Notes under the pieces: model-generated | What the model saw: the letters and a program-made list of their open reading frames with translations, nothing else | Database searches by the model: none | What the model was told of the DNA's origin: nothing | Shown here: piece by piece, positions 5,218-17,832 of the stretch | Layout: the number at the start of each line of letters is the position of its first letter | How positions within the stretch are numbered: the stretch's first letter is position 1 | NCBI RefSeq assembly: GCF_029846175.1 | Contig: NZ_JARWAC010000015.1 | Span: forward strand, 248,001 to 312,000 | Source of the DNA: Sphaerisporangium sp. TRM90804 | GTDB taxonomy: Bacteria > Actinomycetota > Actinomycetes > Streptosporangiales > Streptosporangiaceae | Direction of reading: 5' to 3' | DNA: 64,000 nucleotides | Position numbers and translations under genes: made by a program

Positions 5218-7215
5218 TCACCTGCCGAAGGTGAAGAAGCCGAAACCGTGCTTGCCCAGCAGGTCTTGGGCCAGGCCGCCGAGAAGACCGGTGACGCTGT
5301 CGCGCGCCGAGCGGCTGAGCGCGCTGATGGCCTCCGACGGCGGGCGCCACGGCACCCACGACGGCACGGCGTTCATGGCCGTCACCACGGCGAGGAAGGC
5401 GACGGTGCCGACGATGATCGTCACGACCATGCCCGCGCCCGGGCTGCGGATCACCGCGGTGAGCGTGCGCGCCACCGCCTTGCGCGGCGGGCCGCCACCC
5501 GGGAGCACGAACAGCCCGGCGACGAACGCCGCCGCGGCGTACGCGGCGGCGGTGTCGGCCCCCGACGACGACCCGTTGAAGCCGGCGAGGTAGTACAGCA
5601 CTCCCCACACGCACAGCGCGAACATGCCGGCGAGCGGCGTGACCACGAGCGTCATGAGGCCGGCCTTCAACAGCGCCCACGGCGTGCCGAGCACGAGCAG
5701 CAGCGGGTCGCTCGCGCTGTTGCCCCGGATCGAGCGGCGCTGCGCCAGGTCGGCCCAGAGGTACTCCCCGACCCGCAGGCACAGCACGACCACGACCATC
5801 AGCGTGCCGACCAGCACGGGAAGCATGCGCGCGCCGGCCACCGCGACGACCAGCAGCAGCGCCGCCAGCACCGGGTGCCCGGCGCGGTAGCGCGGCCGGT
5901 CGGGCGCGGGCGGCCTGTGCTCCTGGTCGGGAGCGTAGGGACGGGCGTTCGCCGGCGGCCCCGCGACGCCCTGGGGCGGCCCGCTCGGCGGCGGCGGGGG
6001 GTACCCGGCCACCCGCTGGTCGGCGTAGGGCGCGGGCGGGTAGCGCCCGGGAGGCTGCCCGTACGGCGCCGCCGGCTCGCCCGGGCCCGGCTGGTAGGCG
6101 GGCGGCGGCGCGAACGCGGCCGGCTGCGACCGCTGCGCGTCCGCGCGGCGCCTGCGCTCGGGCTCGGCGTACAGCACCGGCGGCAGGATGTCGGAGTAGC
6201 TGTCCTCCGACACCGGCTTGGTGCGCCGGGTCGGCGGCAGGTCGCCGGGCGGCGCCGCCGCGCCGTTCAGCACGTGCGTGCGGTCGGGGCCGGAGTCGCC
6301 GGCGCCGGCCCGGGTGCCGTCGGGGACGCGCCCGTTGCCGTGCGGGGCGTCGAGCCTGCGGGTCTGGCCGCCCTGGTTCGGCGGGGGCGGCAGCTGGGAG
6401 GTCACGCTCGCGTCGAGCCCCCTCGCCATGGCCAGCAGGCCCTGCGCGTTGGGCCGGGCGCCGGGGTTGACGTTCAGGGCGGCGCGCAGCCAGGGGCGCA
6501 GCCAGGCGGGCGCCTTGTCGATGCTGGCCCGGCCCTCCATGATGTTGTAACAGACCATCTCGAAGGAGCCCGTGCCGAACGGCGGCTTGCCGGTGGCCCC
6601 GAAGAACACCGTGGCCGCCAGCGCGTGGACGTCGGCGGCCTGGGTGATCTCCTCGTCCCTGATGATCTCCGGGGCGAGGTAGCCGGGCGTGCCGACGAAC
6701 ATGCCGGTCTGGGTCAGCCGCGTCGCGTTGACCAGGTGCGCGATGCCGAAGTCGATGACCAGCGGGTCGCCGTCCACGATCATCACGTTGGCCGGCTTGA
6801 GGTCGCGGTGCACGACGTCGGCGGCGTGGATGGCGATCAGCGCCTCCGACAGCCCCCGCACCAGCCGTATGACGTCGTTCGCCGGCAGCGGGCCGTCGGT
6901 CAGGACGGTCTCCTCCAGCGTGCGGCCGGGCGCGAACCGCGTCACGATGTACGGCGTCGAGCCGGTGAGCTTGGCGTCCAGCACCTGGGCCACCCGCGGG
7001 CTGCGCACGCGGCGCATGGTCTCGACCTCGCGGGTGAGGCGGTCGCGGGCCTTGAGGTCGGCCGCGACATGGCGGTGGAGCACCTTGACGGCGACCTCCC
7101 TGCCCTCCTCGTCCAGGCCGAGGTGGACGACGCCCATGCCGCCCTCGCCGAGCCGGCGCAAAAGCCGGTAAGGACCGAGTTCGCGCAGCGTGTCGGGCAC
7201 GGTATCCCCCGTCAT
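5218..7215 (-). CDS. Ser/Thr protein kinase with Pro-rich linker and multi-helix membrane domain
   Basis: A 665-residue kinase. The glycine loop GEGGMG is at 23-28, Lys44 in VAVKVL, HRDLKPAN at 136-143 and DFG at 155-157. Residues about 280-440 are a proline-rich disordered linker, followed by a membrane domain of about five or six helices and a short polar tail. It has no PASTA or other extracellular sensor domain, so sensing may occur in the membrane. The ATG at 7215 has a strong site (GGAGGAAGG) and overlaps the stop of the upstream kinase by four bases. Longer in-frame starts lie inside that gene and were rejected. Confidence 0.93.
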   Translation of the reverse strand: MTGDTVPDTLRELGPYRLLRRLGEGGMGVVHLGLDEEGREVAVKVLHRHVAADLKARDRLTREVETMRRVRSPRVAQVLDAKLTGSTPYIVTRFAPGRTLEETVLTDGPLPANDVIRLVRGLSEALIAIHAADVVHRDLKPANVMIVDGDPLVIDFGIAHLVNATRLTQTGMFVGTPGYLAPEIIRDEEITQAADVHALAATVFFGATGKPPFGTGSFEMVCYNIMEGRASIDKAPAWLRPWLRAALNVNPGARPNAQGLLAMARGLDASVTSQLPPPPNQGGQTRRLDAPHGNGRVPDGTRAGAGDSGPDRTHVLNGAAAPPGDLPPTRRTKPVSEDSYSDILPPVLYAEPERRRRADAQRSQPAAFAPPPAYQPGPGEPAAPYGQPPGRYPPAPYADQRVAGYPPPPPSGPPQGVAGPPANARPYAPDQEHRPPAPDRPRYRAGHPVLAALLLVVAVAGARMLPVLVGTLMVVVVLCLRVGEYLWADLAQRRSIRGNSASDPLLLVLGTPWALLKAGLMTLVVTPLAGMFALCVWGVLYYLAGFNGSSSGADTAAAYAAAAFVAGLFVLPGGGPPRKAVARTLTAVIRSPGAGMVVTIIVGTVAFLAVVTAMNAVPSWVPWRPPSEAISALSRSARDSVTGLLGGLAQDLLGKHGFGFFTFGR

Positions 7216-9350
7216 CCTGCCTTCCTCCGAAGGCCTTCCAGTTGTTCGATCCAGTAGCTCACGTCCAGTGGACTCCACACTGCATCGCCCGCGGGCCCGA
7301 CGAGCGTGCTGACCGCGTACAACACGGCCAGCGCCGCCACGAGCCCGATGCTGGCGACGAACGTGAAGGCCATGCCCTTCGACGGTAACGCGGCGGCGAG
7401 GGTCCGGCGCATCTGACGGCCGGGGCCCTCGACGCCGGGCCCGGCACAGACGATCCACAAGGACACGGCGACTCCCCAGCTCAGGGCGGTGCTCGTCGGC
7501 ACCCGATCGACCAGGAAGGTCAGCACCAGCGCCACCGGCACGCCCAGGATGAGCGCGTAGGGCAGCAGCCCCACGGTGACGGCCAGCGACTTCAGCATCG
7601 CCCCGGGGCGCCCCGCCACGCGCAGGACGTCCGAGGCGCGCGGGGCGCCCATGCCGGGGCCGGCGAGGTCGGCGGCCCGCAGCAGCACGACCGCGGGCAG
7701 CACGAGCGCGGCGGTCAGCACCGGCGCCAGAAGGGCCGCGCCGACCGCGACGACCAGCACGAGCGCGCCCGCGACGCCGTACACCGGCGAGCCCTCGGGC
7801 AGCTCCCTGGCGACGGGCGGGGAGTACCCGGGCGTGGCCTCCGGCGGCAGGTGGACGGTGGGCACGTACGGCGGCGCGGCGGGGTGGCGCACGTGCGGGG
7901 TCTTCTCGAAGATCTCGGGGGCCTGCTCGAACAACGCCTGGTTGTGCGGCCGCACCGGCGGCGCCGCGGGGGAGGGGTCGAGCCCGTGCGCGACCGGCGG
8001 CATCGGCGGCGGCGGGGTCGCCGTCCCCGGCTCCGGCCGGGCGGGGGTGGCCCGGTAGAGCTTGGCGTCCCGCTCGACGCCCGCCAGCTCCTCCGGCCTG
8101 ACCCGCCGGGTGGGCACCTCGCCCTGGTCGAGCGGCGCCGGCTCGGCGGCCTTCCACGGCTGGGAGGAGGACGGCGGGGCGTAGCGCGTGGGGATCTCCC
8201 CCTCGGCCGGCGAGGCCGCGGGGCTCTCGGGCGAGGCGGGCGGGGTGTGCCGGGTGGGGATGTCGGCCTCCGGGCGCCCGGCGGCCGGGGTCAGGTCGGA
8301 CGGCGGCACGCGCTCGCGTCCCCCGGCGGCCCGCAGCTCGTCGCCGGTGACCCGCACGGTCGGCCACGGCTCCTCGCCCCCCGCCTTGGGCGGGGCGTCG
8401 CCGAGCAGCGAGACGAACTCCTCCGAGGCGGCGGGTGCGGCGGGGCGGGGCGGCGGCGTGCCGGTGCCCGGGACGTCGGCGACCTCCGGCACGCCGGAGA
8501 CGTCGGGCACCGTCAGGGCCTCGTCGGGCCGCACCGGACGGCCCTGCGCGGTGCGCGAGGGCGGCGCGATGAGGGCCAGCCGCGCGGCGAGCTCGGCCGC
8601 GCTGGGGCGCTTGGCGGGGTCGCGCGAGAAGGCGGCGCGCAGCAGCGGCCGCAGCACCGGCGGCGCGGCGTCGACGTTGGCCCGGCCCGCGGTGATGTTG
8701 TAGAAGACCATCTCCAGCGTGCCCTTGCCGAACGGCGGCAGCCCGGTGGCGGCGAACAGCATGGTGCCGGCCCAGGCGTGCACGTCGACCTCAGGGCCCG
8801 CCTCGTGGCCCTCGATGATCTCGGGCGCGAGGTAGCCGGGGGTGCCGATGAACATGCCGGTCTGGGTCAGGCGGGTGGCGTCCACGGCCTGCGCGATGCC
8901 GAAGTCGATGAGGACGGGCTCCCCGTCGAGCAACAGGACGTTTCCGGGCTTGAGGTCGCGGTGGATCACGCCGGTCGCGTGCACCGCCGCCAGGGCCTCG
9001 GCCACGCCGCGCGCCACCCGCAGCAGGCCCTCGACCCGCAGCGGGCCCTTCTGCTTGACGGTGTCGTCCAGGGGCATGCCCGGGACGTAACGGGTCACGA
9101 TGTAGGGCCGGCTGCCGGTCACGTCGGCGTCGACGACCTCGGCGATGTACCTGCTGCGCACTCGGCGCATGGTCTCGACCTCGCGCGAGAGCCGCCTGCG
9201 CGCGACGTCGTCCCCCGCGACCTCGCCGCGCAGGACCTTGACGGCGACCTGCCTGCCCTGGGAGTCGAGCGCGAGGTGCACCACGCCCATGCCGCCCTCG
9301 CCCAGCCGCCGGAGCAGCCGGTAGGGACCCAATCGGTCGTGCTGGTTCAT
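7212..9350 (-). CDS. Ser/Thr protein kinase with Pro-rich linker and multi-helix membrane domain
   Basis: A 712-residue kinase and the first gene of the kinase run. It has the glycine loop GEGGMG near 18-23, Lys38, catalytic Asp132 in HRDLKPGN, DFG at 149-151 and GTPGYLAPE. A long Pro/Thr-rich linker containing several T-R-Y/H-A/T-P-P units (possible phosphorylation sites) leads to about five or six membrane helices. The kinase half closely resembles that of its downstream neighbour, which suggests tandem duplication followed by divergence of the linker. GGAG lies five bases before the ATG. Confidence 0.93.
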   Translation of the reverse strand: MNQHDRLGPYRLLRRLGEGGMGVVHLALDSQGRQVAVKVLRGEVAGDDVARRRLSREVETMRRVRSRYIAEVVDADVTGSRPYIVTRYVPGMPLDDTVKQKGPLRVEGLLRVARGVAEALAAVHATGVIHRDLKPGNVLLLDGEPVLIDFGIAQAVDATRLTQTGMFIGTPGYLAPEIIEGHEAGPEVDVHAWAGTMLFAATGLPPFGKGTLEMVFYNITAGRANVDAAPPVLRPLLRAAFSRDPAKRPSAAELAARLALIAPPSRTAQGRPVRPDEALTVPDVSGVPEVADVPGTGTPPPRPAAPAASEEFVSLLGDAPPKAGGEEPWPTVRVTGDELRAAGGRERVPPSDLTPAAGRPEADIPTRHTPPASPESPAASPAEGEIPTRYAPPSSSQPWKAAEPAPLDQGEVPTRRVRPEELAGVERDAKLYRATPARPEPGTATPPPPMPPVAHGLDPSPAAPPVRPHNQALFEQAPEIFEKTPHVRHPAAPPYVPTVHLPPEATPGYSPPVARELPEGSPVYGVAGALVLVVAVGAALLAPVLTAALVLPAVVLLRAADLAGPGMGAPRASDVLRVAGRPGAMLKSLAVTVGLLPYALILGVPVALVLTFLVDRVPTSTALSWGVAVSLWIVCAGPGVEGPGRQMRRTLAAALPSKGMAFTFVASIGLVAALAVLYAVSTLVGPAGDAVWSPLDVSYWIEQLEGLRRKAG

Positions 9351-9719: not shown

Positions 9720-10244
9720 TCACAGCGCCAGGGATACCACCTCGGCGGACTTCAGCCGCGAGAGCGCCTCACCGGCGAGCGCCAACTTGGAGCCCCGGAT
9801 TCCGCTGCCGATCACGACGAACGGCCGGCGGGTCACCTCGGTGTCGACCAGCACCGGCCAGTCGCCCGGCAGGCCGAGCGGGGTGATGCCGCCGTACTCC
9901 ATGCCCGTCGACTCCACGGCCTCCGCCTGCGGGGCGAACGACGCCTTGCGGGCGTCCAGATGGCGGCGGACGACGCCGTTGACGTCCGCGCGCATGGTGG
10001 CCAGCACCAGCACCGCCGCGTGGCGGGTCTCTCCGCCGCGCCTGGCCGCGACGATCACGCAGTTGGCCGAGTCGTCCATGCCGACGCCGTACCGCTCGCA
10101 GAACGCCGCCGTGTCGGCCAGGGCGGGATCGATGGGGGCCACCGCGACGTCCTCGGCCATGGTCTCCAGGGCGCGGGTCACCGGGGCCGCGAGCAGGTCG
10201 GGCCGGCCCTTCGCGGGCTCCCATTCGAGCGTGCCCAGCCTCAT
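9720..10244 (-). CDS. YbaK/aminoacyl-tRNA deacylase-like protein
   Basis: A 174-residue protein resembling the YbaK/ProX editing-domain family, whose members hydrolyse mischarged aminoacyl-tRNA. The fold is suggested by the spacing of the central segment NCVIVAARR, the VRRHLDARK helix, the glycine motif EYGGITPLGLP and the ending PFVVIGSGIRGSKLAL. Last gene of a five-gene operon: its ribosome site (GGAGGGG) overlaps the end of the amine oxidase gene. In this setting it might act on a free aminoacyl product or protect against a non-standard amino acid, but that is inference. Confidence 0.8.
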   Translation of the reverse strand: MRLGTLEWEPAKGRPDLLAAPVTRALETMAEDVAVAPIDPALADTAAFCERYGVGMDDSANCVIVAARRGGETRHAAVLVLATMRADVNGVVRRHLDARKASFAPQAEAVESTGMEYGGITPLGLPGDWPVLVDTEVTRRPFVVIGSGIRGSKLALAGEALSRLKSAEVVSLAL

Positions 10245-10248
10245 GGGG

Positions 10249-11901
10249 TCACCCCTCCTTCAGTACGCGGTGATGGAGCTCGGTCACCACCTTACGGGCG
10301 GACTCGAAGGCGCCCGCCTGCCAGGCGATCAGGTGGGTGAGCCAGTCACCCGCGAAGTACACCCGCCCGGCGGGGCGTTGCAGCACCGAGAACGCCTCCA
10401 TGGACGGCCAGCGCACCCACGCGCCCTCGATGTGCGGCTGCCGCCGCCAGGCCACCGAGGCGCTGGCCACGACCTCCTCGCCGTACCTGGCGCCGTGCAC
10501 CTCGCCTCCCAGGGCCACGGCCCGGCGCACGCGCTCGCGGTGCGACATGACGTCGTACCGCTCGGCCGGCGGGCCGGTGTTGTAGTAGCCGACGATCAGG
10601 CCGCGCTGGGTGTGGTAGCCGTAGGAGGGGTACCAGATGTGGCCGACGTCCAGGTCGGTCTCGGTGGCGCCGCCGTACAGGCGGTCCTCGATCTCCCACC
10701 ACCGGGTGCCGTACTCCAGCCCGAGCTTGCCCGCCGACATCGGGATCGGGGTGGCGAGCGCGGCCGTGACGCCGGCGCCGAGGTTGCCCGGGATCCTGGC
10801 CATCAGGTGCGGCGGCAGGGTGGCCACGCAGTAGTCGGCCTTCAGCGGGGCGCCGCCCTCGATGGCCACCTCCACGCCGCCGGGGCGGTCGGTGATCCCG
10901 GTGACGCGGGTGCCGGTGCGGACGCGCCCGGCGCCCACCTTCCCGACCAGGGCGGTCACGATGGCGTCCATGCCGCCGACCGGCTGGAACATCGGGTTGG
11001 CCTGCTCGTAGCCGGCGTCCATCGTGAGCATCCGGCCGAGCCCGAGGCCGAGGACGTCGCTCAGCGCGGGCGGCGGGCCCAGCTCGGTGCCGGGCGCCAC
11101 CCCGGGGTCGACGCGGAACCCGCGCCGCTCGCCGCCGGTGTAGGAGTGCGCGGCGCCGATGTCCCCGAAGTCGGACAGGAAGTCCAGCAGGAGCGCCTTG
11201 TCGTCGCCGGTGAGGCGCGCGTCGAGCGCCCCGGCGTCGGTGGCCTTGGCCAGCAGCTCGGAGATGTACCCGTGGGCGTCCGCGCGGGCGGTGCGCAGGC
11301 GGGTCCTGGTGCCGGAGGTGTAGACGTAGGCGTTGGCGTTGGAGTTGACGAACACCTCCAGCGGCACGCCCAGCTCGCGGCAGTAGTCGAGCGTCACCAT
11401 CCACTGGGCGATGCGCGCCGGGCCGGCGTTGAAGTACGTGCCGTCGCCGAAGGTCACCCTCTGGGTCTCGCCCGCCGCGGCCGACGGGGTCGCCCCCGCG
11501 CCCGGGGCGCCCAGCTCGGTGACGGTGTCGCCGCCGCGCAGGGTCAGCGTGCGCCCGCCGACCCGGTCGCGGGCCTCCAGCAGCGTGCAGTCGTAACCGG
11601 CCTTGCCCAGCTCGTACGCGACCGCGAGGCCGGTCACGCCCGCCCCGAGCACCAGCACGGTGGCCGGCGCGCCGCCGCCCCCGCCGCCACCGCGCAGGGA
11701 GAAGTCGGAGCGGCTGGGCGGGGCGTACGGCGTCGGCGCCCCGGCCCCGGCCGAGGGCCGCACCGGCGCGGTCTCCCGGGTGGGGGCGAGCCCGAGCACG
11801 CCCATCGCCGCGTACATGGCGCCCGCGCCGCCGGCCGCGCCGATGCCGGCCAGCAGCGACCGGCGTGTGAGCGTGGCGCGCCGCGATGATCCGTCGTCCA
11901 C
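10249..11901 (-). CDS. Tat-exported FAD-dependent amine oxidase
   Basis: A 550-residue flavin amine oxidase (monoamine or L-amino-acid oxidase type). The N-terminus has a twin-arginine signal (TRRSLLAG followed by an Ala/Gly-rich hydrophobic stretch), so the folded flavoprotein should be exported. The Rossmann motif GAGVTGLAVAYELGKAG lies near residues 90-106, followed by LEARDRVGGRT. The C-terminus holds the second FAD segment VYFAGDWLTHL. It starts at a GTG just after the M55 gene with no clear ribosome site, implying translational coupling. The oxidised amine is unknown. Confidence 0.88.
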   Translation of the reverse strand: MDDGSSRRATLTRRSLLAGIGAAGGAGAMYAAMGVLGLAPTRETAPVRPSAGAGAPTPYAPPSRSDFSLRGGGGGGGAPATVLVLGAGVTGLAVAYELGKAGYDCTLLEARDRVGGRTLTLRGGDTVTELGAPGAGATPSAAAGETQRVTFGDGTYFNAGPARIAQWMVTLDYCRELGVPLEVFVNSNANAYVYTSGTRTRLRTARADAHGYISELLAKATDAGALDARLTGDDKALLLDFLSDFGDIGAAHSYTGGERRGFRVDPGVAPGTELGPPPALSDVLGLGLGRMLTMDAGYEQANPMFQPVGGMDAIVTALVGKVGAGRVRTGTRVTGITDRPGGVEVAIEGGAPLKADYCVATLPPHLMARIPGNLGAGVTAALATPIPMSAGKLGLEYGTRWWEIEDRLYGGATETDLDVGHIWYPSYGYHTQRGLIVGYYNTGPPAERYDVMSHRERVRRAVALGGEVHGARYGEEVVASASVAWRRQPHIEGAWVRWPSMEAFSVLQRPAGRVYFAGDWLTHLIAWQAGAFESARKVVTELHHRVLKEG

Positions 11902-11906
11902 GGGCG

Positions 11907-12749
11907 TCAGCCGTAGACGCCCGAGCCGCAGGCCACGTGGCCCGCGATCGTGGCGTAGACGCCGAGCAGGCCCATGATGTCGCGGTAGTCGTCGGTGGTG
12001 AACTCGGTGTGGCGCGGCCCGGCCTGCCGGGTGCCGGGAACCAGGGCGCAGCCGGAGGCGATGGCCGTGGAGTTCCACTCGACGCCCAGGGTGAACGGCG
12101 GCGCGACCTCGTAGGGCCGCAGGTCGGCGAGGCGGTTGAGCGCGCGGGCCGTCCCCTCGCGGATGAGCCGCTGGGCGACGCTCGGCGTCAGCAGCTCGGC
12201 GGCGAAGCGGTCGACGCCCTTCTTGACCGCGACGGTCTCGACGTCGCCCAGCAGCGACCGGGCCTCCTCGCACACGGCCTCGTCGCCGGTGACCAGCGCG
12301 ACCGGCACGCCGTAGAACCCGGCGAACGCGGCCACCAGCCGGGTCTCGCCGCAGACCTCGCCGTTGAGGTAGACGTTCTGGATCTCCTTGCCCATCCACG
12401 TGTGGTTGAGCACGCCGTGCTGGACGCCCGCGCGGGCGTGGTAGCCGGCGAAGACGGCGGCCTGGAAGTCGCCGGACAGCCCCTGGGCCATGCGCATGGG
12501 CTTGCCGGGCCCCCGGATGAGCGACGCGCGCGGGTCGAGCAGGTCGACGCGGAGGTTCTTGGTGGAGCCGTGGGCGTCGTTGACCACCACGGCGGTGCCG
12601 CCCGCCTCGAACGCGCCGGCGATGACGGCGTTGGCGTCGGCGGTCATCAGCTCACAGCCGCGCTCGTAGCCGCGGCCCCCGGCGTGCATCTCCTCGGGGT
12701 CGGTGAGCCCGGTCACGCCCTCCATGTCGACCGACACGTAAATCCTCAT
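11907..12749 (-). CDS. M55-family D-aminopeptidase-like protein
   Basis: A 280-residue protein of the DppA/M55 zinc D-aminopeptidase family. The start MRIYVSVDMEGVTGLT carries the metal-binding D-x-E pair. Further family motifs follow: VVNDAHGS (Asp/His), FAGYHARAG (His) and the LNHTW segment. DppA hydrolyses D-Ala-containing dipeptides. The start overlaps the PP-loop gene by four bases. Its place beside an amine oxidase and a QueC-like ligase suggests handling of a D-amino acid or peptide-like metabolite. Confidence 0.88.
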   Translation of the reverse strand: MRIYVSVDMEGVTGLTDPEEMHAGGRGYERGCELMTADANAVIAGAFEAGGTAVVVNDAHGSTKNLRVDLLDPRASLIRGPGKPMRMAQGLSGDFQAAVFAGYHARAGVQHGVLNHTWMGKEIQNVYLNGEVCGETRLVAAFAGFYGVPVALVTGDEAVCEEARSLLGDVETVAVKKGVDRFAAELLTPSVAQRLIREGTARALNRLADLRPYEVAPPFTLGVEWNSTAIASGCALVPGTRQAGPRHTEFTTDDYRDIMGLLGVYATIAGHVACGSGVYG

Positions 12750-13978
12750 CGACGTCCCCAGCTCTCCACCCGTTCCGTGTCCGCCGCCTCCATGGACCCG
12801 AACGTGCCGGACATGAATGCCTCGATCTCCTTGCGCCAGGGCTCGGGGACCTCCTCGACGGCCGGAGGGTAGCACCGCTCCAGCCACCGGGTTGACTCCG
12901 GCGTCGCCTGGAGGTGCTCGGCCGCCCTGGCGAACGGCGTGGTCTCGATGCCGGGCACGTGCGCGCACCCGTATTCGATCATCTCCTGGCCGCCGTAGGG
13001 CGGGGGCTGCTGCCACTTCGCGGCCACCGGCCGGTCGGCGGTGATCGCGGTTCGCAGGGGGCGCCGTTCGACGGCGGCCTGGATGAGCTCCTTGTACAGG
13101 CATTTGCCGCATCGGCCGCACGGCCCCTGGCCGTCGCCGCGCAGACACCAGCGTACCTGCTCCCTGAGCGGCGAACCGAGCGCCAGCTTCATGGTCATCG
13201 CCTCGCTGATCCCCCCGGCGGGCAGGACGAGCGGCAGGCCGGCGGCGGCGAACAGGCGGCCCCAGCGGCCCGCGCCCGACCACATGGGGTTGTCGGGGGT
13301 GTAGCGGTGGACGTACCGGCCGCCGCCCAGCCAGCGCGAGCCCAGCTCGTAGCCGAGCGCCACGCCGCCGAGGTCCAGCGGGCCGGCCAGCAGGACGGCG
13401 CCGGCCATGACCGCGTGGTGCTCGGGGTACCCCGGCCGCGGGTGGCGCAGCAGGAACTCCAGGTCGGACTGGACGACGGTCACGTCCCTGCCCGTCTGGC
13501 GGGCCAGGGCGGCGAGCACGTCGGAGCGGTAGTGCGTCCACCGGTTGGGAACGCGGGGGTGCGGTGTCCGCTGGAAGTGGACCAGCGGGGCGTCCGGCAG
13601 GATCGTCGCGACGGCGGCCGAGTCGGCGCCGCCGCTGTAGGAGATCGCCAGCCGCCCGCCCGCCCGGGGCGACTCCCCCACCGGCCCGGCGTCCACCCCC
13701 CAGCCGTCGTGGAAGGCGGCGGCCAGCGCGTGCGAGATGGGCCGGTCGAACAGGACGCGGCCCTTGGTCCACGGCGCGGCCACCGTCCAGGCGGCCAGCG
13801 CGAGCAGGTCGGGATGGACCTCGCCCCCGGCCAGGTGCGCCGGCGGCCGGATGTGGCAGGTGTCGGTGGCCAGCTCCACCCGCTGCCCGTCCGTGACGAC
13901 CCCGGTGAGCCCCTCCCCCGCGTCGAGCCGCAGCCGCAGCCGCCAGACCCCGTCCTCCGACGTCCAGGTGATCCTCAT
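12746..13978 (-). CDS. QueC-like PP-loop ATPase of unknown function
   Basis: A 410-residue protein with a PP-loop (SGGADS at 115-120) that would bind ATP and adenylate a carboxyl or amide substrate. Near the C-terminus Cys278, Cys287, Cys290 and Cys293 have the 9-3-3 spacing of the QueC zinc site. The N-terminal 110 residues are an extra domain not found in QueC, and no queuosine genes are nearby. It may belong to a family known only by a DUF number. It overlaps the coiled-coil gene upstream and the M55 gene downstream by four bases each. Substrate unknown. Confidence 0.75.
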   Translation of the reverse strand: MRITWTSEDGVWRLRLRLDAGEGLTGVVTDGQRVELATDTCHIRPPAHLAGGEVHPDLLALAAWTVAAPWTKGRVLFDRPISHALAAAFHDGWGVDAGPVGESPRAGGRLAISYSGGADSAAVATILPDAPLVHFQRTPHPRVPNRWTHYRSDVLAALARQTGRDVTVVQSDLEFLLRHPRPGYPEHHAVMAGAVLLAGPLDLGGVALGYELGSRWLGGGRYVHRYTPDNPMWSGAGRWGRLFAAAGLPLVLPAGGISEAMTMKLALGSPLREQVRWCLRGDGQGPCGRCGKCLYKELIQAAVERRPLRTAITADRPVAAKWQQPPPYGGQEMIEYGCAHVPGIETTPFARAAEHLQATPESTRWLERCYPPAVEEVPEPWRKEIEAFMSGTFGSMEAADTERVESWGRR

Positions 13979-14640
13979 GCCTGCTCGCGCCCGCCCTCGG
14001 CGACCGTCGTGACCCCGGCGTCGGCGATCTCCTCACGCCCGGCGTCGGCGACCTTCTTACGTCCCCCGGCCACCTTGCGCCCACCGGCGGCCTTGGCGGG
14101 CTCGGCGGCCTTGGGACCGGCCGCGACCCTGCGCCCCCGGGTGACCTTGGGCTTACCGGCGACCTTGGGCTCGTCGGCCGCCTTGGGCTCCCCAGCGGTC
14201 TTGAGCTCGTCAGTCGCCTTGGGCTCGTCGGCGGCCGCGTCGCGACCGGACTCGTCGCGACCGGACTCGGCGGCCCGCTCGCCACCGCCCGCCGCCCGCT
14301 CCCGGCCGTCGTCGACGGCCTGCCAGAGCAGGACCTCCGCCTGCAGGAGATGGTCGACGGCCGACGCCGTCTCGGCCGCCAGCCGATGCGCCTCCTCCGC
14401 CTTCGCGCCCACGGCCGGATCCGGCGCCGGCGCCGTCCCGGCCGCCGCGACCCGCCGCCGAAGCTGCTCCACCTCACGCCGCAGCGCCGTCATGTCCCGC
14501 TTGAGTGCCTGAACCTCCCACAGGGCGTCCTTGAGATCACCCCGGTGGTCGCCCCTGGTGACGTACCGAAGGTCGAACCGCTTGAAGAGGGCCTGCCGGA
14601 CGCGCGAGGGCGCCAGCATCCGCATGACCAACCGCGCCAT
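13975..14640 (-). CDS. coiled-coil protein with Lys/Ala/Pro-rich repeat tail
   Basis: A 221-residue protein, first gene of the five-gene operon. Residues about 1-30 are basic and amphipathic (MARLVMRMLAPSRVRQALFK). A predicted coiled coil follows at about 40-66 (alternating LKRDM, LRREVEQLRRRV), then an Ala-rich helix. From about 135 the tail repeats short units such as DEPKAT, GEPKAA, DEPKVA, GKPKVT, reminiscent of histone-H1-like tails. I recognise no enzyme motif. A scaffold or surface-associated role is only a guess. Confidence 0.7.
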   Translation of the reverse strand: MARLVMRMLAPSRVRQALFKRFDLRYVTRGDHRGDLKDALWEVQALKRDMTALRREVEQLRRRVAAAGTAPAPDPAVGAKAEEAHRLAAETASAVDHLLQAEVLLWQAVDDGRERAAGGGERAAESGRDESGRDAAADEPKATDELKTAGEPKAADEPKVAGKPKVTRGRRVAAGPKAAEPAKAAGGRKVAGGRKKVADAGREEIADAGVTTVAEGGREQA

Positions 14641-14995: not shown

Positions 14996-15505
14996 TCAAC
15001 GCCCCGCCGGGCGATCGGCGGAGCACAGCTCGTCGAGCCGCTCCAGGGTGCTCGTCATGCTCGTGATCCACCAGGCGCGGCCGTCGTGCATCTCGGCGCG
15101 TTTGCCCTCGGGCAGGCGGGATCCGTCGAAGATCTCCGTCACGATCGTCGCCCCGGCGCCGTCGGGGGCCAGGTCGAAGATCCACCGATGCCCCCACCGG
15201 GACTCCGCCGCGGACTCGTCGGGATGGCCGCGACCCGGTTTCGGCTCCCAGCCCACCCGCCGGCCGGCCTCGTACTCCACGACGTGGTTGTTCATCTCGT
15301 AGTCGCCGTGCCGGTCGTTGTGCATCCTCATGACGAAGACGTCGCCGACGGCCGAGACCACCGCGTCGGTGACGGCCCCCCGCAGCATGCCGGAACCATC
15401 GAGGTCGAGATGCCTGCGCGGATCCGTCAGGACCCGGAAGATCTCGGCCGCCGGCGCCTCGACCCGCCGGGACACCGCCACCGGCTCGCCTATCTCGCCC
15501 ACCAT
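14996..15505 (-). CDS. SRPBCC-family (START-like) protein
   Basis: A 169-residue helix-grip protein of the polyketide cyclase/START type. It begins with the family strand VSRRVEAPAAEIFRVLTDP and ends with an amphipathic C-terminal helix (WWITSMTSTLERLDEL) that would close the hydrophobic pocket. Such proteins bind small hydrophobic ligands; the ligand is unknown. I chose the ATG at 15505 because GAGGGG lies five bases upstream; the GTG at 15511 would overlap that site. Confidence 0.82.
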   Translation of the reverse strand: MVGEIGEPVAVSRRVEAPAAEIFRVLTDPRRHLDLDGSGMLRGAVTDAVVSAVGDVFVMRMHNDRHGDYEMNNHVVEYEAGRRVGWEPKPGRGHPDESAAESRWGHRWIFDLAPDGAGATIVTEIFDGSRLPEGKRAEMHDGRAWWITSMTSTLERLDELCSADRPAGR

Positions 15506-15633
15506 CAGCACCCCTCACCTGTCACGCCGCACGACTCGGCACCGTGCCGGATGCTACGCCGAAGGTGCGACAGAACGGCCGCTCCGGCCGGTGATCGGCG
15601 ACGGTCCCCGGCGTCCGCGGGCGCCGTCCTGGG

Positions 15634-16407
15634 TCAGCGGCCGGTGAAGGTGGGCTTGGTCTTCTCGGTGAAGGCCTTCAGGCCGGCCCGGGCGTCCTCG
15701 GTGGCGAAGAGGCCGGAGAAGTGCAGGCGTTCGATCTCCAGGGCGGTGGCGAGGTCGGCGTCGAGGCCGTCGTCGATGGCCCGCTTGGCGGCGCGCAGGG
15801 CCAGGGAGGGGCCCTCGGCGAAGCGGGACGCCAGGGACACGGCCTCCTCGTAGACCTGCTCGTCGGGGACCACGCGGTCGACCAGGCCGATGGCGAGCGC
15901 CTCTGCGGCGTCGACGTGGCGGCCGGTGTAGATCAGGTCCTTGGCGCGGGCGGGGCCGACCAGGCGGGGCAGGCGCTGGGTGCCGCCCGCGCCGGGGATG
16001 ATGCCCAGGGCGATCTCGGGCTGGCCGAGCCGGGCGCCCTCGCCGGCCAGGCGGAAGTCGGCGCACAGGGCCAGCTCGCAGCCGCCGCCCAGGGCGTAGC
16101 CGGTGATCGCGGCGACCACGGGCTTGCCGATCGCGGCCACGGCGGTGAAGCACTCCTGGAGGCGGGCCGAGCGCACCGACATCTCGGCGTACGACATGTC
16201 GGCCATCTCCTTGACGTCCACCCCGGCGGCGAACACCCGCTCCCCGCCGTACAGCACGACGGCCCGCACCCCCGGGTCGGCGTCCACCTCGCGTGCCGCG
16301 GCGAGCAGCTCCTCCTGCACCTGGATGCTGAGCGCGTTCATCTTGGGCCGGTCCAGCCGGACGGTGGCCACCCCGCCGGCGGCCTCGACACGCACGAACT
16401 CCCCCAT
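15634..16407 (-). CDS. enoyl-CoA hydratase/isomerase family protein
   Basis: A 257-residue crotonase-fold enzyme that would hydrate trans-2-enoyl-CoA in beta-oxidation. Residues forming the oxyanion hole are seen in FAAGVDVKEM and GYALGGGCELAL. The catalytic-glutamate region GQPEIALGIIPGAGGTQRLPR is a good match to short-chain hydratases of the EchA8 type. The ATG at 16407 has GAGGAGG at ideal spacing; an upstream GTG would start before that site. It is monocistronic here. Confidence 0.92.
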   Translation of the reverse strand: MGEFVRVEAAGGVATVRLDRPKMNALSIQVQEELLAAAREVDADPGVRAVVLYGGERVFAAGVDVKEMADMSYAEMSVRSARLQECFTAVAAIGKPVVAAITGYALGGGCELALCADFRLAGEGARLGQPEIALGIIPGAGGTQRLPRLVGPARAKDLIYTGRHVDAAEALAIGLVDRVVPDEQVYEEAVSLASRFAEGPSLALRAAKRAIDDGLDADLATALEIERLHFSGLFATEDARAGLKAFTEKTKPTFTGR

Positions 16408-16501
16408 CACGCCCTCCTCGGCTGCCACGACACCGCGATCACCGCGGCGCGGGGACCACCCTAGCGGCCGTGCCGCGCCTCCCTTCGAAGCCCGGGACGC
16501 G

Positions 16502-17590
16502 CTAGCGGGCGGCGCGGTCGAGGAGTTCGCGGATGAGGGAGACGACCTCGGCGGGTGAGAACTCCATGGCGTTCTCGCCGACGCTGACCTCGAAGGCGCA
16601 TCGGGTGGGGTCCGGTGAGGTGCGCAGGCGGGGGAACAGCTGGGTGCCGTGCTCGGCGATCATGGCGGCGCCGGCGCGCTCGACGGCGGCGCGGGGGGCG
16701 GGGAGGTGGACGTGGAACATCGGGGCCTGCGGCGGGTCGGGCCAGGCGAGGGCCGCGCCGTCGGCGTTGATCGCCGCCGCGAGCGCCACGGCGTGGTCGC
16801 GGAACTCCGGCATGCGCGGGACGAGCGTGTCGAGCCCGGTCAGGGCCGCCAGGGCGAGCGGCCACGCGTCGTGGACGTTGCCGCCGAGCCTCGTGCGCCA
16901 CGTCGCCGCCTCGCGGAGCATCGGCACGTCGCCGGCGAGCACCGCGCCTCGGACGCCCTGCAGGCTCTTGTAGAGCGACACGTACACCGAGTCGAACAGC
17001 CCGGCGATCTCCTCCAGCGGGCGCCGGTAGTAGGCCTGCGCCTCGAACACCCGGGCTCCGTCGAGGTGGGCCGCCGCTCCCCCGGCGCGCACCTCGGCGA
17101 CCTGGGCGACCAGGTCGTGCCATTCGGGCAGCAGGCCGCCGATGTCGCGCTGCGGCAGCTCCCACACGACCGCCGCCAGCGGCTCGCCGATGAGGGCCAG
17201 GTCGGCGGCGGTCATCAGCTCGTGCCGGTCGCCGGCGGGGTGGAACCGCAGGCCGTGCACGATCGCGTACCCGCGCCGCTCCCAGACGTCCAGGTGGGTC
17301 TGGGGGTGGGCGGCGAACGCCTCGCGGCCGCGGCGCGCGGCGTGGACGCGCAGGGCGACCTGCTGCGCCATCGTCCCGGTGGGGAAGAACAGCGCGGCCT
17401 GCGTGCCCAGCATCTCGGCGAGCCGCCGCTCCAGCCGCGCCACCGGCCCGCGCGGGCCGTCCGGCGGGGTGCCGGGCTCGACGCGCTCCAGCATCTGGCG
17501 CAGCACGACCTCCGGCATCCGCCGCATCGGCGCGTGCAGGAACAGGGATCGTGTGATCCGGGCGCCGCCGCCGGCGTTCGATGGTGTCAC
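16502..17590 (-). CDS. threonine aldolase / beta-eliminating lyase-family PLP enzyme
   Basis: A 362-residue fold-type I PLP enzyme related to low-specificity threonine aldolases. Expected features are FPTGTMAQQVALR (cofactor phosphate region), HLDGARVFEAQ with the PLP-pyridine aspartate, and SLYKSLQG with the Schiff-base lysine. True threonine aldolases carry a histidine stacking on the PLP ring near residue 80; here HPQTHLDVWE may supply it. The start is uncertain: GTG at 17590 or TTG at 17632, neither with a clear ribosome site. It may act on a beta-hydroxy amino acid other than threonine. Confidence 0.82.
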   Translation of the reverse strand: MTPSNAGGGARITRSLFLHAPMRRMPEVVLRQMLERVEPGTPPDGPRGPVARLERRLAEMLGTQAALFFPTGTMAQQVALRVHAARRGREAFAAHPQTHLDVWERRGYAIVHGLRFHPAGDRHELMTAADLALIGEPLAAVVWELPQRDIGGLLPEWHDLVAQVAEVRAGGAAAHLDGARVFEAQAYYRRPLEEIAGLFDSVYVSLYKSLQGVRGAVLAGDVPMLREAATWRTRLGGNVHDAWPLALAALTGLDTLVPRMPEFRDHAVALAAAINADGAALAWPDPPQAPMFHVHLPAPRAAVERAGAAMIAEHGTQLFPRLRTSPDPTRCAFEVSVGENAMEFSPAEVVSLIRELLDRAAR

Positions 17591-17832
17591 GAGGGCAACA
17601 TGCCATCGCCGCCATTGAGTGGCAAGTGCCAACCACTGGCGGCAACGGCCCGCTCACAGCGAGCGCGAGGGCGCGAGAGCGAGCCGCCGACACGCGGACG
17701 GTGAGGACGGCGCCCGGCGATGGCGAACGGCCGCGGGCCGGCGGCGAGCGCCCGGGCCGGCGTCACCGGCCGGCTCAGAGCGAGCGGTGGCGGGGTGACG
17801 GCACCTGCTCGGTCACGGCGCCACCGGCCGGA
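17591..17832. other. low-complexity intergenic region
   Basis: About 240 bp between two minus-strand genes, holding imperfect repeats such as CGGCTCAGAGCGAGCG near 17770 and CGCTCACAGCGAGCG near 17650. These are self-complementary (CGCTC/GAGCG) and could fold as small hairpins ending the GT4 transcript. I see no gene. Confidence 0.4.

Follow-up and report, generated by a model that had tools for sequence, protein, structure and literature searches.

The window analysed here is a stretch of 64,000 nucleotides from Sphaerisporangium sp. TRM90804 (RefSeq assembly GCF_029846175.1, contig NZ_JARWAC010000015.1, positions 248,001 to 312,000 of the forward strand), and the subject of this text is a run of minus-strand genes in it that is built around a PP-loop ATPase. 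A first-pass annotation of the window had described five genes there that overlap or nearly touch; all five open reading frames (ORFs) were found, with a spacing of at most 5 bp. We refer to their products as CC (coiled-coil protein), PPL (PP-loop ATPase), M55 (M55 peptidase-like protein), LAAO (L-amino-acid-oxidase-like protein) and YbaK, with coordinates given as positions in the window:

13975..14640, minus strand: CC, a coiled-coil or helical protein (ORF call, 221 amino acids)
12746..13978, minus strand: PPL, a DUF6395 PP-loop ATPase, QueC/QatC-like (ORF, 410 amino acids)
13619..13636, minus strand: SGGADS pyrophosphate-binding loop of PPL, residues 115-120 (motif)
13100..13147, minus strand: C(x)8CxxCxxC zinc-site motif of PPL, Cys278/287/290/293 (motif)
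11907..12749, minus strand: M55, a D-aminopeptidase-like protein (ORF, 280 amino acids; PF04951, E 1e-94)
10249..11901, minus strand: LAAO, a flavin L-amino-acid-oxidase-like protein with a Tat-type signal (550 amino acids, GTG start)
9720..10244, minus strand: YbaK-like aminoacyl-tRNA editing-domain protein (174 amino acids; PF04073, E 2e-19)

CC and PPL overlap by 4 bp, as do PPL and M55, and gaps of 5 bp and 4 bp separate M55 from LAAO and LAAO from ybaK. Four of the five genes have Pfam support (DUF6395 at E 1.6e-67, Peptidase_M55 at 1e-94, Amino_oxidase at 3e-41 and tRNA_edit at 2e-19), and no family scored over the cut-off for CC in the Pfam scan.

PPL matches DUF6395 (PF19932) at 227 bits against a curated cut-off of 25, and it carries the SGGADS loop and the four cysteines at 9-3-3 spacing on which its first description as a QueC-like ATPase was based. 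S115, G117, A118, D119 and S120 are found in all 59 close homologues and G116 in 57 of them; Cys278, 287, 290 and 293 are invariant both in these 59 proteins and in 24 of 24 distant DUF6395 proteins. The closest named homologues among the matches listed (the best 120 of 170) come from Sphaerisporangium, with 76-83% identity. The best structural match to the PPL model, in a VIA-align run on Foldseek's own candidate list, is QatC, including its N-terminal extension. Asp57, which lies in this extension of PPL, is invariant and aligns with an aspartate that is likewise invariant in eight QatC proteins; going by how far it lies from the D(x)4R motif, the latter should be D63 of QatC, a residue that PMC13329287 calls catalytic. 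At the level of sequence, the modelled protein, which takes a QueC-like fold, contains the zinc-site motif. Sequence searches of the PDB with PPL gave nothing at E 1, and four weak matches of the PPL profile (alignment A2; best E 0.044) were taken as chance. The shared fold, the PP-loop, the zinc motif and D57 together speak for PPL, with its QueC/QatC fold, as an enzyme that activates a carboxylate with ATP. The earlier view of PPL as a QueC-type zinc and PP-loop enzyme is borne out by fold and motifs, and its place outside the QueC, CBASS and Qat systems known so far holds to the extent that those systems were scanned; what that view had not recognised is that the protein belongs to a named family.

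QueC makes the tRNA-base precursor preQ0, and the chemistry of its family is the adenylation of a carboxylate. With ATP and ammonia, QueC converts a carboxylate into an amide and then into a nitrile (PMC13329287, PMC13279940; both cited here and below from partial text). PPL shares with QueC (PF06508; PDB 3bl5, 2pg3) the SGGxDS and C(x)8CxxCxxC motifs described in PMC13329287, but differs by N- and C-terminal extensions, and the PF06508 profile matches neither PPL (E 0.1) nor anything else in its genome (E 0.001), while 12 of 14 control genomes have a match. The QueC substrate motifs YxQxHxxE, VPxRN and YPDC were not found in PPL, which instead shows, by eye, an HPR/NRW region, YPEHH and TPDN. 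Position 227 is T in 53, S in 5 and Y in 1 of the 59 close homologues; just D229, present in 56 of them, fits the Asp of YPDC, with an uncertain register. QueD (PF01242) is absent from the window genome and matched in 9 of 14 control genomes. For QueE (TIGR03365) the score in the genome, 35 bits, falls short of the cut-off of 206; this is a weaker negative, as only 1 of the 14 control genomes passes. The remark that no queuosine or Qat partners lie nearby agrees with our scan, which detected none among the ten window genes that were family-scanned.

With QatC of the qatABCD anti-phage system (PDB 9y01/9y02) PPL shares the fold and the N-terminal extension, but the QatC profile NF041925 has no match in PPL (E 0.1) and none in its genome (E 0.001). 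The zinc site of QatC reads C(x)19CGxCxxRR, in contrast to C(x)8CxxCxxC in PPL, which has CxxKE in place of CxxRR, and where QatC has a Thr pair near the substrate PPL reads T/S-P-D-N. QatC works with QatA and QatD as partners, neither of which is among the ten genes scanned at the PPL locus, where the chromosomal site is fixed.

CC consists of a conserved core (about residues 1-118) followed from about residue 120 by a Lys/Ala/Pro-rich tail (alignment A3), and its AF2 model shows three helices at low confidence (pLDDT 67.5, pTM 0.38). Of the four cassette proteins it shows the lowest conservation, with a median identity of 51%. The A3 profile finds 171 proteins at E 0.001, and the named ones among the 120 listed belong to the genera in which PPL is found as well. 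The near-constant adjacency of the two genes and their overlap make CC a likely dedicated partner of PPL, to which it would bind. In the window protein the C-terminal part (13975-14280) is a repetitive Lys/Ala/Glu/Pro-rich tail, about 100 residues long and mostly absent from the other 20 aligned CC rows. A weak CC-like match about 4.5 kb from an M55 gene in one genome without a PPL match (G041; E 3.7e-5) was taken as chance; by eye, we take the genes at that locus to encode an M20-like peptidase, a prolyl-oligopeptidase-like protein and an LD-carboxypeptidase-like protein.

The order CC-PPL-M55-LAAO is kept across Streptosporangiaceae, a family to which we presume the relatives to belong where record titles do not settle it. 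This is seen in 80 loci, the best 80 of 99 found in named genomes, a set that is biased to close relatives, in which contig ends truncate some loci and one locus is a solo PPL copy. PPL has CC next to it in 79 of the 80 at E 1e-5 (78 at E 1e-8), and the locus includes M55 in 71, LAAO in 77 and ybaK in 70; junctions of 20 bp or less occur in 74 of 78 cases for CC-PPL, 50 of 71 for PPL-M55, 28 of 70 for M55-LAAO and 22 of 70 for LAAO-ybaK. The genes are not rarely but often found together, and their order recurs in other genomes. Among 197 genomes of the class, CC (strong matches), PPL and the M55 clade (at least 77% identity) occur in the same eight, and the A2 profile finds nothing in the 197 beyond these eight. 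In a larger draw DUF6395 scores over the cut-off in 15 of 394 genomes, all in the window's own family group; one further genome, from another family, has a match below the cut-off with stops inside. The CC-PPL pair is the core of the cassette, and such a simple, conserved pair in culturable actinomycetes offers a tractable route to the function of a non-QueC member. A second, solo PPL copy without CC, M55 or LAAO within 10 kb was observed in Streptosporangiaceae bacterium NEAU-GS5 (L047:10001-11218).

The region around the cassette is syntenic as well, and includes an alpha-glucan phosphorylase, the enoyl-CoA hydratase, kinases and ETF-like genes. The label of the alpha-glucan family phosphorylase (glgP-like) is over its cut-off and the ETF-like labels are below theirs; the 'glgE-like', debranching-like and GT4 pieces that were tested had no NCBIfam match at E 1e-20. 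In the window, the site of the cassette is bordered by:

15634..16428, minus strand: enoyl-CoA hydratase, bordering the insertion site on its upstream side (PF00378, E 1e-73)
7212..9350, minus strand: AfsK-like Ser/Thr protein kinase, downstream border region (PF00069, E 1e-40)

Insight into the history of this site comes from a sample of 23 outgroup loci. In four of them (L129, L133 and L138 from one fetch, L263 from another) an alpha-glucan phosphorylase gene is followed by enoyl-CoA hydratase, ybaK, kinase and two ETF-like genes; the stretch from enoyl-CoA hydratase to ybaK, which holds CC-PPL-M55-LAAO in cassette-bearing loci, measures about -3 to 71 bp here. In the other 19, ybaK is present without the cassette and without that synteny. 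Relatives of ybaK occur in 132 of the 197 class genomes at E 0.001, many with 50-67% identity, and the window protein meets only the general editing domain PF04073, scoring 45 bits against a cut-off of 153 for the Cys-tRNA(Pro) deacylase model TIGR00011. The four cassette-free sites and the class-wide spread indicate that ybaK is probably an older neighbour and not part of the inserted block. Since PPL is narrowly and ybaK widely distributed, the cassette was most likely inserted between enoyl-CoA hydratase and ybaK rather than lost from the four relatives, as far as distributions tell the direction. Of the proposed five-gene unit, four genes recur as a block, but ybaK also occurs without the other four; our analysis thereby argues ybaK out of the system and sets the borders of the block.

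M55 aligns with the Bacillus subtilis D-aminopeptidase DppA (1hi9) at E 6e-52 over residues 1-256. D8, E10, H60, H104, H116 and E135, which we take to correspond to the metal and nucleophile residues of DppA, are invariant in an alignment of 87 rows (the window and the locus copies, with some species twice). The window M55 differs from DppA in forming a clade of its own, and no dpp transport genes are among the ten window genes scanned. Because the Pfam match begins at residue 1, there is no room for a signal peptide. For LAAO the closest solved chain is the L-amino acid oxidase 2jae, presumably from Rhodococcus (E 1.7e-123, query residues 81-549), from which it differs by its cassette context and its Tat-type signal. 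The export of this amine oxidase, proposed in the first-pass annotation, is in line with a Tat-type TRRx(L/F) motif detected by pattern in 73 of 76 orthologues of over 480 amino acids. As the catalytic residues of DppA and the Tat-type signal are kept, M55 is probably cytosolic and LAAO probably exported.

Both enzymes look accessory to CC-PPL, since M55 is gone from seven genomes that retain the pair (L024, L043, L046, L049, L053, L059 and L065; draft or otherwise unchecked assemblies) and LAAO from two sampled loci. Four of these seven genomes have M55 paralogues of 39-42% identity and three have none at E 1e-20, whereas a copy of 78-90% identity was found in all four control genomes, in which M55 is nearby or displaced. 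In L021 (S. album) an M55 copy of 88% identity lies elsewhere in the genome. LAAO is absent between M55 and ybaK in L012 and L013, the genomes of which (G016/G161) have no LAAO match at E 1e-60. Close LAAO copies (at least 62%) occur in six of the eight cassette genomes, and one cassette genome carries a second copy of 59% identity.

DUF6395 reaches far beyond this clade. A plasmid search revealed a full-length DUF6395 protein, 25% identical, on a plasmid of Priestia megaterium, next to glycosyltransferases, two nucleotide-sugar dehydrogenases, galU, a pyruvyl transferase and spore coat genes. A search with this one distant query found 561 proteins at E 0.001, evidence of a large QueC-related family, and all 120 listed carry PF19932; the named ones among these are mostly from Bacillota, with one from Microbulbifer, which we take to be a gammaproteobacterium. 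One protein (P0168) is a fusion of DUF6395 with the glycosyltransferase domain PF13524. Seventeen viral-contig loci were fetched, and DUF6395 and some neighbours were scanned in 11; L250, L254, L255 and L258 (apparent copies or near copies of L249, L253, L248 and L257) as well as L260 were left out, and the L262 protein had no DUF6395 match. A glycosyltransferase is among the scanned neighbours in seven of the 11, and in L253 a GT2 gene precedes DUF6395 and a UDP-sugar-dehydrogenase gene follows it. A phage collection gave no DUF6395 match with three queries, and tblastn of CC, M55 and LAAO in 19 distant DUF6395 loci (L244-L262) gave no match at E 0.001. Two tandem DUF6395 genes stand between terminase-like and phage portal genes at L252:4329-6722, with no glycosyltransferases among the genes scanned.

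Fifteen residues are invariant across the 59 close and 24 distant DUF6395 proteins, and 20 sites are two-state. The distant members (Bacillota, Microbulbifer, viral) belong to the same Pfam family as PPL but have a GFPVD pocket motif where PPL has YPEHH, and given the 20 two-state sites the Streptosporangiaceae clade may have changed its substrate. In the distant proteins (alignment A5) position 227 is Tyr or Phe in 24 of 24 and position 229 Asp in 19 of 24, at the place of the QueC YPDC and with uncertain register; a nucleobase-like substrate is possible for the wider family. An hhalign comparison of A5 with A4 aligned the cysteine region only, at a probability of 10%, yet above all 40 column shuffles. 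Two viral members (L256:1727-2848 and L259:9764-10846) also match PF06508 at 19-21 bits, just under the cut-off, as possible family bridges, and these near-matches tie DUF6395 to QueC independently of the model.

We tentatively favour, with somewhat less than even confidence, the reading that PPL is an enzyme that forms amides and that its substrate is a building block of the cell envelope. The four-gene cassette would have entered between enoyl-CoA hydratase and ybaK in the ancestor of Streptosporangiaceae sensu stricto and would have been inherited vertically since. By analogy with QueC, PPL would adenylate a carboxylate with ATP and transfer it to an amine or ammonia to give an amide, and CC, apparently co-translated with it, would act as its dedicated partner. 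The substrate would most likely be an envelope building-block carboxylate, for example a uronate or a D-amino-acid carboxylate, and M55, with D-aminoacyl peptides as presumed substrates, and the exported LAAO might trim or recycle related amino compounds. What points to the envelope is the glycosyltransferase fusion P0168, the Priestia plasmid locus, which is one for surface glycans, and the viral locus L253. It is not required that M55 and LAAO form one linear pathway.

Several observations weigh against this reading. Foldseek alone, with the PPL model against the PDB, gave no match at E 0.001, its top rows being argininosuccinate synthase and TrmU/MnmA, and the hhalign probability of PPL against QatC is just 62%. 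The co-occurrence evidence comes from a single clade, and loss in the four cassette-free relatives is a formal alternative to insertion, as distributions were compared without a tree. The envelope link derives from relatives of about 25% identity whose pocket differs. In L252, L256 and L257 genes for a phage portal or capsid lie at most about 4 kb away, contrary to a simple glycan rule, and glycosyltransferases on viral contigs make up 9 of 36 nearby genes as compared with 3 of 20 genes in a distal control (10 loci), no clear enrichment. Because of these near-versus-far counts, the glycan link stays a lead and is not a result.

It is somewhat unlikely that the genes are neighbours by ancestry only, in which case CC and PPL would work together, and M55 and LAAO would function independently, having been retained alongside them where rearrangement is slow. 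The synteny of the surroundings is consistent with this, as are the losses of M55 and LAAO and the weaker LAAO relatives (38-56% identity) in genomes without the cassette. However, the four genes form one block at one site, and M55 is the most conserved member (median identity 79%), is closely joined to PPL in most loci and has a clade that is confined to the eight PPL genomes of the 197, the next best M55 among the class genomes having 41% identity.

A QatBC-like pair with a non-defence use, in which PPL would attach a small carboxylic acid to CC itself, is an unlikely solution. Its precedent is Cap9, which joins a carboxylate to a protein N-terminus (PMC13329287, PMC13279940) and does this to CD-NTases; QatB is the helical partner of QatC, the reaction of which PMC13279940 gives as still unresolved. 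In favour, QatC, which has the N-terminal extension too, is the closest structural match, and CC is small, helical, directly upstream of PPL and overlapping it. On the other hand, Gly2 as in QatB and CD-NTases is found in none of 21 aligned CC rows (start codons as assigned), conservation is lower in CC than in the other three proteins, and the genome lacks QueC and QueD matches and has a QueE match only below the cut-off.

Quite improbable, in our view, is that DUF6395 is a further functional branch of QueC/QatC whose members in Streptosporangiaceae form, with CC, a housekeeping protein- or envelope-conjugating enzyme, using a non-deazaguanine carboxylate in bacteria without the deazaguanine pathway, with M55 and the exported oxidase processing the amino-acid side. 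The original proposal, by which all five genes including ybaK act in a single pathway towards an unusual amino-acid or peptide metabolite, is very unlikely: the genes lie within 5 bp of each other in the window genome and ybaK comes after LAAO in 70 of the 80 loci, but relatives of ybaK are found across the class, and in four cassette-free relatives one adjoins enoyl-CoA hydratase. It is extremely unlikely that the genes form a Qat-related anti-phage system, in spite of the QatC-like fold and of DUF6395 homologues on contigs with phage structural genes, as the chromosomal site is fixed, QatA and QatD are lacking among the ten window genes scanned, and PADLOC, run on the five genes, has no match for PPL, CC, M55 and ybaK and as its sole match LAAO to a candidate model, PDLC01086, annotated 'C-3?,4? 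desaturase' (E 2.4e-26).

QueC-type enzymes were recently found joining small molecules to proteins in phage defence (PMC13279940). We found no paper in the open-access library searched that names DUF6395 or PF19932, the survey of PF06508 (PMC13329287) has no description of DUF6395 in its partial text, and no description of the CC-PPL-M55-LAAO cassette was found in the literature searched.

In the window, an SRPBCC/AHSA1-like gene (14996-15511) lies between enoyl-CoA hydratase and CC, and a GntG/threonine-aldolase-like PLP enzyme gene (16502-17632) adjoins enoyl-CoA hydratase; similar genes occur in 0 of the 80 other loci in either case (E 1e-8). The kinase of the downstream border scores under the cut-off of the AfsK model, and a similar kinase gene is present in 76 of the 80 loci.

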